Below, one piece after another: positions 18,714-31,250 of a DNA stretch of 33,456 nt. Below the pieces are notes generated by a model, which saw only the letters and a list, made by a program, of their open reading frames with translations, was not told the origin of the DNA and made no database searches. Source of the DNA: a virus. Position numbers and translations under genes: made by a program. The stretch lies in IMG/VR virus record IMGVR_UViG_3300046507_000197, positions 1 through 33,456 of that record; one strand, written 5' to 3'. Position 1 is the first letter of the stretch; the number at the start of each line of letters is the position of its first letter.

Positions 18714-19078
18714 GACCGCACCTGCAGCTCGTACACAAGCGCCGTACCGGCCGGGTTGATCTCTTTCAGAGGCGGGATGATTGACCAAGTCTTACCCTGG
18801 ATCACCGCCTTGCTCAGTAGCGTTGGCGGCGCGCTCAGCCCGCTCGCGGCGATCTTCAGCTTCTTGTCGCCGACCTTGATCAGGCTGCTGGTCTGGAATT
18901 CTTGGCCGGTGAAGTCGAGCAGTATGCCTTGGGCGGTCCGCTCGGTGACTGTGTCCGGGCCGGTCTTGCCAGTGCTCGGGTCGTAAACACCCTTGACCGT
19001 GTCGCGGAGGATTACTGGCCGACCAAACTCGGTGATCAGCTCAAGGGCCATCACGGCCATCTCGTCGTAGAAGGCCAT
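18710..19078 (-). CDS. Head-tail adaptor protein
   Basis: 122 aa from ATG 19078 after GAGGTGGTT. Segments ALELITEFGRPVILRDTVKG, QGILLDFTGQEFQTSSLIKVGDKKLKIAASGL and TWSIIPPLKEINPAGTALVYELQVR match the small beta-barrel head-tail joining proteins that sit at the neck of siphophages. It follows a moron and its terminator and precedes the gp10-like gene with an ATGA overlap. Confidence 0.82.
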   Translation of the reverse strand: MAFYDEMAVMALELITEFGRPVILRDTVKGVYDPSTGKTGPDTVTERTAQGILLDFTGQEFQTSSLIKVGDKKLKIAASGLSAPPTLLSKAVIQGKTWSIIPPLKEINPAGTALVYELQVRS

Positions 19079-28674: not shown

Positions 28675-29000
28675 GGTGGATTGCCTCCCCCGAACCGCTG
28701 GCGTATGAGTGCCCAGAGGTCAGCGGCTTTGATGGCGCGATTAATGGCGGTCATCAGAGACCCACCGAAAGCGCCTAGCAGGAACCCGACGCCAGCCACA
28801 TCACTTGGCTCGACCACGCTGAAGCGGTCGCAGACGATGCCGGTCAGGTAGAAAGCGCAGGCGATGCCGGTGCCGAGAAAGATCGCCCACGACCGGAAGT
28901 CCTTGAGGTCATCTTTGTGCCACCAACTGGCAACGATCGCACCAACCAAGCCCGCGATAAGCCAGTCGAGTTTGTCGAGCAGGCGGTGAAGTAACTCCAT
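28671..29000 (-). CDS. Holin-like membrane protein
   Basis: 109 aa, with hydrophobic segments at about residues 13-29 (WLIAGLVGAIVASWW), 39-58 (AIFLGTGIACAFYLTGIV) and 68-84 (VAGVGFLLGAFGGSLMTA) and charged ends: the class I holin layout. It would make the pores that release the SleB endolysin, which has no signal peptide of its own. It is located after the llpA terminator and ahead of the terminase module, about 27 kb from the endolysin. Confidence 0.75.
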   Translation of the reverse strand: MELLHRLLDKLDWLIAGLVGAIVASWWHKDDLKDFRSWAIFLGTGIACAFYLTGIVCDRFSVVEPSDVAGVGFLLGAFGGSLMTAINRAIKAADLWALIRQRFGGGNPP

Positions 29001-29058
29001 GCGCTCGACTCCGTACTGGGCAGGGATTGTGTTCGCCGAAAGGCGTGACTAACAAATG

Positions 29059-29095
29059 AATGCTCCTGGCCGATTCCTTCGAACGGACAGGAGCA
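29059..29095 (-). terminator. Long-stem hairpin downstream of llpA
   Basis: Minus strand TGCTCCTG...CAGGAGCA (8-bp stem) with an inner CCG...CGG pair, followed by TTCATTTG. It closes the com-llpA unit ahead of the holin gene. The T-run is weak. Confidence 0.55.
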
Positions 29096-29135
29096 CTTAC
29101 CCGCTATGGTTGCTAACTCGTTACGCTACGGACAG

Positions 29136-29978
29136 TTAAAACGACCAAACTGGAATATCGTATGGTCCCCATTTAGTCCATTTTTTATGGGCGCTAATCG
29201 TGGGCGTGAAACCGAATCGAGCCCACACCGGTTTGTCCATGGCCACCGATACGGTCCCATTAGCTTGGATTCGAAGATAGGCACCAGGGTTGCCATAAGT
29301 CTTCGTATTCCAGACGACAGTCGAATCCGCGTAGATGACAAAATTGCCGTCCTCTTGCATGACCGCTCTGTTCGCGCCTGACCCATACGTACCGGAGCTC
29401 CACAACGGAGTTTCGTTTGCAGCGTATAGAACGAGATTTCCATCGGCCTGAAACGAGAAATGGTTGGCGCCAGACTGATAGGTTTGGCCCTGAACCAGAG
29501 CCTCTCCAGGTTTGACGGTTAGGTCAGTTTTGAAAAGTGAGAACTGCTCGATCGATGTGTTGCTGGCCCACAGCGGAAAGCAATCATTCAATACGAGATT
29601 GCCATCGTCCTGCATGACTAGATAGGTGCGGTACGCGGCGAGATCGACGTTGCCACCCAACGGGGTAGAGTTAGTGGTGAGCCAAGATCTATTGCGAGTG
29701 ACGTCATTGAATCGAAAATAGTAGTAGGTCGTGAGGTAATTACCCCCACCTTTGTCACTAGCAGGCTGGGAATAAAGCCAATTAGGTGGCTCTCTCTCCG
29801 TTGCCCACCACACTGCCTTCCCGGTTGTATTATCGTAAATGACAAGATTGTTATCTGTCTGAAGGGTCAGTGTGAAATGCTGAGACGGGGACATTAGGAC
29901 TTGTCCGGGTAGCAGCTTTGTGACTGGCGGAAGAACTGGGCTGCCATCGCCAGTAAAAGGCGCGTATGCAATGGCCAT
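29136..29978 (-). CDS. llpA: Lectin-like bacteriocin (LlpA / putidacin L1 type)
   Basis: 280 aa with tandem monocot-mannose-binding-lectin (MMBL) domains, the layout and size of LlpA bacteriocins. MMBL motifs QxDxNxVxY: QTDNNLVIY (residues 40-48), QDDGNLVLN (123-131, last residue changed), QADGNLVLY (177-185), QEDGNFVIY (208-216), and a degenerate one near 238. It has no signal peptide, as usual for this class, and ends DIPVWSF. LlpA proteins kill related Pseudomonas by binding D-rhamnose-containing LPS and acting on BamA. ATG at 29978 is preceded by ATAGGTGAAAAA, in which the site overlaps the com stop codon. The reading frame extends upstream to 30095, but only across com. Base composition is more AT-rich than the phage genes. 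Confidence 0.92.
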   Translation of the reverse strand: MAIAYAPFTGDGSPVLPPVTKLLPGQVLMSPSQHFTLTLQTDNNLVIYDNTTGKAVWWATEREPPNWLYSQPASDKGGGNYLTTYYYFRFNDVTRNRSWLTTNSTPLGGNVDLAAYRTYLVMQDDGNLVLNDCFPLWASNTSIEQFSLFKTDLTVKPGEALVQGQTYQSGANHFSFQADGNLVLYAANETPLWSSGTYGSGANRAVMQEDGNFVIYADSTVVWNTKTYGNPGAYLRIQANGTVSVAMDKPVWARFGFTPTISAHKKWTKWGPYDIPVWSF

Positions 29979-29986
29979 TTTTTCAC

Positions 29987-30172
29987 CTATCGAGTCGAAT
30001 GATTGGGTGCGGAGATTTCCGCTTTCATGTCGCTCAAAGGCGATAGCTCGGGGCTCGTGGCCCTCACATGATTCAACGTCCCGCATCGGGAACATTTGAT
30101 CTGGAGCTCCGTCATCTCACCGATACGGGCGAGAAGTCTTTTGCACTTTCCACATCTGCAATCTTTCAACAT
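29987..30172 (-). CDS. com: Mu Com-like zinc-finger translational regulator
   Basis: 61 aa (MLKDCRCGKCKRLLARIGEM), with the Com pattern: C7-x2-C10 and C27-x2-C30 (IKCSRCGTLNHVRA). Mu Com has 62 aa with the same cysteine spacing. In Mu, Com binds an RNA stem-loop at the mom ribosome site and switches on mom translation. Here the gene just downstream is llpA, with 8 nt between them. The ATG at 30172 follows AAGGCTTTGCAG; a TTG two codons upstream is too close to AAGG. Confidence 0.9.
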   Translation of the reverse strand: MLKDCRCGKCKRLLARIGEMTELQIKCSRCGTLNHVRATSPELSPLSDMKAEISAPNHSTR

Positions 30173-30326
30173 CTGCAAAGCCTTATGGTTTTCTGCTAGG
30201 CTCCGCCCCGCTCGCGCGAGCAGTGAGGGCCTTGGCTGGCTTGCAGGCTGGTTCTGCGATCTGGCGTCTCCCTTGGGTGTTACAGCACCCTCTGGAGTCG
30301 CCCTCTCTTTTTTGCGGACAAATGAA
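30173..30326 (-). promoter_or_regulatory. Leader region of com-llpA with palindromes
   Basis: No gene seen here. It holds a perfect 12-bp palindrome GCTCGCGCGAGC (30210-30221), a hairpin GGGTG-ttacag-CACCC (30275-30290) and GGAG-rich stretches. It separates the tandem terminators from com, so a promoter for com-llpA should be within it, but no clear -35/-10 pair was found. It could carry an activator-dependent promoter, as in Mu com-mom. Confidence 0.4.
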
Positions 30327-30351
30327 AAAGCCCCGATCTTGTCGGGGCTTT
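30327..30351 (-). terminator. Intrinsic terminator upstream of com (second of two)
   Basis: AAAGCCCCGA-tcttg-TCGGGGCTTT is a 10-bp stem with a 5-nt loop; on the minus strand the stem runs into TTTTTC. It could also terminate plus-strand transcription. Confidence 0.8.
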
Positions 30352-30368
30352 GTCGTATCTGGCAGGCA

Positions 30369-30394
30369 CAAAAAAACCCGCTCGGTGGCGGGCC
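30369..30394 (-). terminator. Intrinsic terminator downstream of the early operon (first of two)
   Basis: Minus strand CCCGC-caccga-GCGGG followed by seven T. Placed right after the 69-aa gene, as tR' stands between Q and the late genes in lambda. Confidence 0.8.
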
Positions 30395-30462
30395 TCTCGG
30401 AGCAAGTTGCCGTAGGCAAAATACTCAATGTGGCGAAATGATGCACTCAGCCGTGCGGGAAG

Positions 30463-30672
30463 TCAATCCTTAGTGATCAACAAGAAATCCTGCGGAGGGA
30501 TCTGATTATCTCGGCCGAGGTACTTGACAGGTATCCCCATGAAAGCGCCGGCGCTAAACTCCGGACTTTTGTGAATCGCCTCTACAGCCTCCTTCGACCA
30601 TAGATGAATTTCTGTAACCGGCTTTCCGTCTTGCTGGGACTTCGCTATCGCGTCCAAAATGCGCTCTTTCAT
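30463..30672 (-). CDS. Small phage protein, 69 aa, unknown
   Basis: MKERILDAIAKSQQDGKPVTEIHLWSKEAVEAIHKS, helical then a short C-terminal beta part (MGIPVKYLGRDNQIPPQDFLL). Starts overlapping the previous stop (ATGA), so it is the last gene of the early operon before the terminators. No family recognised. Confidence 0.75.
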   Translation of the reverse strand: MKERILDAIAKSQQDGKPVTEIHLWSKEAVEAIHKSPEFSAGAFMGIPVKYLGRDNQIPPQDFLLITKD

Positions 30673-31250
30673 GCGGCTTCCTTCATCTGATAAATGACCG
30701 CCCCCACTGGGCTGAGCGCCATCCTATCAAGATCCTCGCAGCACTCGAAAATCAGCGTGATGACCGGATCCCAGTCACGGGCCCAGGCGCAGGATTCCAG
30801 CCTCACACCGTATTCTGCCATGAGCCACGAGCGAAACCCTTCAGGCTTGATCAGCGGATCTTCATTGGCCGACTGCCCGCCTTGGTGCATATAGCGGTAC
30901 CGGCGCATCACGCCCTTCACCACATACTCCAACTTTTCGCGCTTGCCCGCTGTCATGCGCTTGGACTTGGAGACGACCATGCTGAACACCACTTCCTCCG
31001 CTGCCTCGCGGATATCGTCGCTGCGGTGCGCGGCGTACATGTACTCGCCGAACACGCGCACCTGAGGGTGAAGCCTGGCAATGACCGACTGAATGTGACC
31101 GGCAAGCGCGCTGTGCACGGCGTGGTTCGCGGTCGGCCCGCGCTCGGTGGCTTGGACCACCACACCCAACTGAACGACGTCCGAACTTTGGCCCGGCGCC
31201 GGGTTGTAGGTGCAGTCATGCCACGCCTGACGTGCGGAATTGATCTTCAT
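30669..31250 (-). CDS. 193-aa protein in the position of late antiterminator Q
   Basis: MKINSARQAWHDCTYNPAPGQSSDVVQLGVVV... The protein is mixed alpha/basic in its middle part (SKSKRMTAGKREKLEYVVKGVMRRYRY), with a C-terminal WDPVITLIFECCEDLDRMA helix. It follows ninG (ATGA overlap) and is followed by one small gene and two terminators, exactly where lambdoid phages have Q. I see no firm sequence match to known Q families, so the function is inferred from position and from the many late terminators that need antitermination. Confidence 0.6.
   Translation of the reverse strand: MKINSARQAWHDCTYNPAPGQSSDVVQLGVVVQATERGPTANHAVHSALAGHIQSVIARLHPQVRVFGEYMYAAHRSDDIREAAEEVVFSMVVSKSKRMTAGKREKLEYVVKGVMRRYRYMHQGGQSANEDPLIKPEGFRSWLMAEYGVRLESCAWARDWDPVITLIFECCEDLDRMALSPVGAVIYQMKEAA

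Follow-up and report, generated by a model that had tools for sequence, protein, structure and literature searches.

The window, the whole 33,456 nt stretch of viral DNA that was analysed, carries on its minus strand a small gene, com (30172–29987), directly followed by llpA (29978–29136); all features described below lie on the same strand. The com gene has an ATG start and encodes a 61 aa Com-type zinc-ribbon protein (MLKDCRCGKC...CSRC...), which in a family profile search scores 70 bits with PF10122 (Zn_ribbon_Com; cut-off 22.9) and also matches phrog_6417, 'translational regulator'. When aligned with Mu Com, all four zinc cysteines (both Cys pairs) are kept. The 280 aa product of llpA matches NF033557 ('putidacin L1 family lectin-like bacteriocin') over residues 8–279 (280.2 bits, cut-off 275) and PF01453 (B_lectin) in one stretch, residues 172–225, and four QxDxNxVxY-like stretches, three of them intact, can be seen by eye in its translation. 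By family profile LlpA is a putidacin L1 family lectin-like bacteriocin, a family with two monocot mannose-binding lectin domains in tandem, and it may kill related Pseudomonas. No immunity gene was seen beside llpA.

The com stop codon (TAG, 29989–29987) is separated by 8 nt from the llpA start codon (ATG from 29978), and the llpA Shine-Dalgarno (SD) sequence, AGGTGA, overlaps the stop codon. An earlier note on this DNA had described a small Com-type gene directly before llpA, with this gap and this overlap; the coordinates, the PF10122 match above cut-off and the zinc cysteines shared with Mu Com confirm it. Two holin genes lie downstream of the cassette and NinG/NinB-type recombination genes upstream. 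The earlier note had also tied LlpA to the late programme of the phage, a claim that found little to sustain it: the cassette is preceded by a dedicated leader RNA and, just upstream of that, by a terminator-like hairpin (30351–30327, from a pattern scan only), and a search of the window for a Mor/C-type activator gave none. Such a tie is possible.

The linkage of com and llpA is known. The cited passages of the review 'Lectin-Like Bacteriocins' (Ghequire et al. 2018, PMC6240691) state that, P. aeruginosa apart, a short PF10122 gene with homology to Mu Com stands before about 90% of llpA genes, that com also precedes other tailocin cargos as well as glycosyl hydrolase and levansucrase genes of P. 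syringae, and that the role of com before llpA was still to be explored. The pairing of Com with a bacteriocin, which the earlier note took to be new, had thus been published by 2018. In line with the review, a phage from P. aeruginosa with an llpA-like gene (L325) has no annotated com beside that gene. Literature searches found no RNA element in com-bacteriocin cassettes.

Com-type hairpins within com

The RNA target of Com, as determined by SELEX, EMSA and SHAPE, is a hairpin whose loop, CC(N)2-3GAG, is always closed by a C-G pair; the Mu hairpin, in the phage where Com is the activator of mom, is augc-CUGCGA-gcau (PMC6483171). Two hairpins of this type are found in the 3′ part of the window com: hairpin A, gggc-CACGA-gccc (30063–30051), and hairpin B, ucgc-CUUUGA-gcga (30043–30030). 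Both match the target motif and have stems that covary in relatives; hairpin A is conserved in position, and hairpin B has an alternative pairing with the SD.

Com regions were sampled from viral contigs, annotated phage records and genome contigs. Of the 88 viral regions, 83 had Com hairpins with stems of at least 4 bp, as did all 11 phage-record regions and 77 of the 80 genome regions; codon shuffling gave expectations of 1.3, 0.3 and 2.4, respectively. Two or more such hairpins occurred in 71 viral, 7 phage-record and 40 genome regions, and in none of the codon shuffles. The eleven phage-record genes come from phages of Pseudomonas, Burkholderia, Stenotrophomonas, Curvibacter, Moraxella and E. 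coli (Mu), and their hairpin stems differ (gcgc, aggc, tcgc, agtc, atgc). After clustering at 85% identity, the motif was present in 124 of the 125 non-redundant com regions, before unrelated genes. With motifs picked by position only, the three pairs next to the motif formed 192, 186 and 183 times in 216 cases (about 100 times when the position was slid); the fourth pair did not. The second and third stem pairs exchange CG, GC, TA and AT across the non-redundant regions.

Constraint at these sites is seen at the nucleotide level: the peptides encoded at the hairpins differ between groups, and synonymous codon conservation is 0.97 in the hairpins compared with 0.82 in the zinc domain. A class-wide search for PF10122 gave matches in only 5 of 369 genomes. 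Elsewhere in the window, two more Com-motif hairpins with 4 bp stems occur at 19050 and 18852, also on the minus strand, which is about the number expected by chance in 33 kb.

A predicted masking helix over the llpA Shine-Dalgarno

The nucleotides of hairpin B take part in a second structure. The arm CGCCUUUGAG (30042–30033), within hairpin B, is an anti-SD sequence, and a conserved long-range pairing joins its CGCCNNNGAG to the segment CUCGAUAGGUGA (29994–29983), which holds the com stop codon and the llpA SD and forms the 3′ arm of a masking helix. The two arms were identified by folding and by an arm-swap test, and the stem is capped by a third hairpin, C (GCGGA-aatc-TCCGC, 30022–30009). 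The same sequence of hairpin B also pairs with the cargo SD in Pseudomonas cargo cassettes. As the masking arm is made of hairpin B nucleotides, hairpin B and the masking helix are mutually exclusive, and if Com binding and masking of the ribosome site exclude each other in this way, the region would act as an RNA switch.

Hairpin C is the local stem-loop pointed out by the earlier note. It is real and it covaries: across 45 homologous loci all four counted pairs change on both sides, and 97.2% of cells are paired. It is not, however, the site of Com, which lies 5′ of it in hairpins A and B. The same note had suggested that CUAUC pairs with GAUAG next to the SD; this pairing can form in the window but is not conserved, the homologues mostly having CGATCGCC and CTCAATAGG, and it was rejected as the masking pairing in favour of that between CGCCNNNGAG and the SD arm.

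Coevolution of the Com loop with the SD arm was seen in the arm-swap test, made on 31 junctions of at most 90% identity, a limit that does not fully remove relatedness. Duplexes between each loop arm and its own SD arm had an energy of −9.59 kcal/mol, compared with −8.06 (sd 0.29) when arms were swapped between loci and −4.05 when they were shuffled, and none of 2000 permutations was as good as the matched arms. Compensated pairs of arms include CCUCUGAG/CUCAGAGG (L201), GCCCUU/AAGGGC (L226), CCUAUGA/UCAUAGG (L055) and, before a levansucrase, GCCUUU/AAAGGU (L323). In the 45-row alignment the masked (OFF) structure is 88.8% paired, against 30–46% when slid, and its covariation is 0.111 against 0.067 in shuffled alignments (0 of 500 as high). 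Hairpin C is the best supported part of this alignment; the outer SD helix varies mostly on one side, and its support therefore comes from the arm-swap test. The RNA arrangement of com-llpA is far beyond chance.

The effect of hairpin B on the ribosome site was modelled in 74 cassettes of the same layout. Enforcing the hairpin raised the median unpaired probability of the SD from 0.10 to 0.49 (in the window, from 0.04 to 0.49); the increase was above 0.2 in 49 cassettes, and a decrease of that size was seen in none. The OFF stem exceeds the ensemble containing hairpin B in stability by about 6–7 kcal/mol, so that Com binding would have to be tight or co-transcriptional.

Cargo genes and the leader RNA of com

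The start codon of the cargo gene lies 49–60 nt after hairpin B in cassettes. Among 78 unique cassette junctions, the cargo is LlpA in 32 and a protein of an unnamed 105–121 aa family in 30; the remainder comprise four alginate lyases (PF08787), four DUF642 proteins, two colicin M-type proteins (PF14859), two levansucrases and a small number of others. One more colicin M-type cargo, that of L226, is not among the 78 junctions. The alginate lyase-like cargo, found in one family of com cassettes (L197, L200, L082 and L085), was unexpected. The 105–121 aa family, the second commonest cargo of com (L039:443–805 and about 30 other cassettes), is modelled as a beta sandwich (pLDDT 88), for which Foldseek gives weak matches, with E values of 0.0015 or worse, to phage cement and capsid proteins (7dou, 4dmi). 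Cassettes can also occur in tandem: L008:1776–2983 carries two com-LlpA units, and L038:105–2412 carries three cassettes, two with LlpA-type cargos and one with a member of the 105–121 aa family. A relative of llpA at L009:2700–3030 has no com nearby and yet is preceded by a Com-type hairpin, gggc-CAAGA-gccc, perhaps from a decayed com or for control in trans.

Outside these cassettes, the gene after com mostly encodes a DNA methyltransferase or a Mom-like protein. In the methyltransferase-type operons the start codon is most often 15–22 nt after hairpin B, and enforcing the hairpin moves the unpaired probability of the SD only from 0.36 to 0.42. The hairpin loop is present there without control of the SD, so a loop that masks the SD looks like a special feature of the cargo cassettes.

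Directly before the window com is a structured leader RNA of about 140 bases (30313–30170), which was recognised by its fold (z −2.4), a profile match (E 8e-38) and covariation within classes. The profile gave 219 matches in the sampled loci and the window, always directly before com and never elsewhere; some of these loci overlap, and the matches are not 219 independent cases. Folded class by class, the long hairpin of the leader displays many compensatory changes; a global MAFFT/RNAalifold alignment mis-registers between classes and recovers 12 pairs only, so the per-class folds are the better guide. A conserved sequence of the leader, CUGCAAGCC (30246–30238), can pair with the ribosome region of com, GGCUUUGCAG-AUG (30182–30170); matched arms gave −10.7 and swapped arms −9.6, with 0 of 500 swaps as good. 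The leader is missing before some cassettes and before the levansucrase gene. A mapping of the lscB transcription start (−339) onto the leader was tried and is void, because the lsc locus of P. syringae has no leader.

A search of the whole window against Rfam gave no match at the gathering threshold, and within 28900–30700 the sole match with an E value up to 1 was to Trp_leader, below threshold and upstream of the cassette. Judged from its sequence, the leader before com, which has no Rfam match, is a candidate for a new regulatory RNA, one that probably adds control on the synthesis of Com itself.

Probable control of llpA by Com and comparison with related systems

Taken together, we think it quite likely that com-llpA works like Com/mom of Mu, as a switch that turns translation on, here rebuilt to serve a cargo gene. 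While Com is low, CGCCUUUGAG in com would pair with the llpA SD and the com stop region, with hairpin C as a cap, and LlpA would be OFF. As Com builds up, it would bind hairpin B, plus hairpin A just upstream; the nucleotides held in hairpin B would then no longer mask the SD, and llpA would be translated (ON). The earlier note had supposed that Com gates LlpA translation, and this is strongly supported at the RNA level by the covarying Com target hairpins that compete with the SD-masking helix; given a Com hairpin and a masking pairing that exclude each other, Com very probably switches translation of the bacteriocin on. Binding of this RNA by the window Com, its activating rather than repressing action and the size of its effect in cells are points that we infer. 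There are also observations against a Com switch. Some llpA genes have no com, and in P. syringae neither levan nor levansucrase changed when com on an lscB plasmid was given a premature stop (PMC3899960, section 2.6; data not shown there). At lscB, however, Com might be supplied in trans, since P. syringae has further com copies before lscC and before a glycosyl hydrolase gene.

The Com protein would not be needed if com and llpA were joined by plain translational coupling, with ribosomes that reach the com stop codon melting the masking helix and freeing the llpA start 8 nt further on. Most cassettes have a layout suited to this, since their com stop falls in the 3′ arm of the helix and no more than about 12 nt separate it from the cargo start, but in L002–L005 and L007 the stop is 25–37 nt before the cargo start. 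Coupling also leaves unexplained why, across many groups of phages and bacteria and ahead of unrelated genes, com should keep two Com-target hairpins whose stems covary, and the lack of effect of the premature stop at lscB speaks against it too, although the position of that stop is not given in the paper. We consider coupling an unlikely explanation.

Lower still is the probability that Com binds the hairpins and represses, either lowering translation of com or blocking ribosomes near llpA, as in autoregulation. The hairpins do lie in the coding sequence of com itself, and in most methyltransferase-type operons the next start codon is close behind hairpin B, as might suit a repressor. Mu Com, however, activates mom (PMC6483171), and in the modelled cassettes the SD is freed when hairpin B forms and is in no case more hidden.

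It is highly improbable that Com regulates transcription by acting on DNA. RefSeq names the product 'Com family DNA-binding transcriptional regulator' (plasmid matches H47–H69), and transcription of lscB/C is driven by the prophage-derived region in front of them (PMC3973379), but the elements conserved in transcribed com are 4 bp hairpins with compensatory changes, and they match an RNA target selected in vitro. The RefSeq name disagrees with this RNA hairpin evidence. Just as improbable is the idea that com is a relic that hitch-hikes in this phage and does nothing for llpA. The lscB result and the llpA genes without com (the P. aeruginosa phage and L009) would fit a relic, but com, both hairpins and an SD switch specific to the cassettes are kept before cargo of several unrelated families, and synonymous codons in the hairpins are held as strongly as noted above.

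The on-switch of llpA may itself be the second of two stacked RNA switches in com operons: the leader would mask the com ribosome site, maybe sensing a signal, and the Com hairpin/SD switch would then release the cargo. We give this reading slightly less than even credence. If true, such a circuit in two steps would give phages and prophages a single RNA-protein gate behind which unrelated cargo could be placed: bacteriocins, colicin M, alginate lyase, levansucrase and small structural-looking proteins. Since the same cassette carries unrelated cargo, com together with its hairpin could serve as a marker for new phage-borne effector genes. For llpA, the Com hairpins and the exclusive SD helix offer a concrete answer to the open question of what com does there, and one that can be tested by mutation.

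Among related systems, the com-methyltransferase operons of B3-, P2- and Mu-like phages resemble the window in their Com family, in having Com hairpins in tandem and often in the leader RNA. They differ in controlling a DNA methyltransferase, whose start is closer to hairpin B, and in having no clear loop-based SD switch. In PAPE-lscB/C of P. syringae (PMC3899960, PMC3973379), com is directly before levansucrase, as in the com-cargo cassettes. Both Com hairpins are present there (aggc-CGUGA-gccu and ucgc-CUUUGA-gcga), and the SD, AAAGGU, is complementary to GCCUUU; unlike in the window, the apical hairpin is replaced and there is no com leader RNA. A bacteriophage-derived activator of the lsc genes, LscR, was reportedly described in 2016.

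The com-llpA and com-cargo pairs of Pseudomonas are the same gene pair as that of the window, a com-like gene standing before most llpA genes outside P. aeruginosa; the cited passages of the review (PMC6240691) give no RNA element, and the hairpins, SD switch and leader are described here from sequence. The com-mom operon of Mu has a Com of the same family encoded directly upstream of the controlled gene, a hairpin of the same type inside com, and a start region that is also held in secondary structure. Mu has one Com hairpin and the window two, and the cargo is a DNA modifier in Mu and a bacteriocin in the window. The circuits also differ. In Mu the Com hairpin adjoins an inhibitory stem (CCCAC...GUGGG), whereas in the window the Com loop itself is the anti-SD, so that binding and masking would exclude each other. 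The recognition hairpin of Mu Com is thereby extended from mom to bacteriocins and other cargo, and the putative RNA switch of the already known com-llpA pair is a well-supported new form of Com/mom control.
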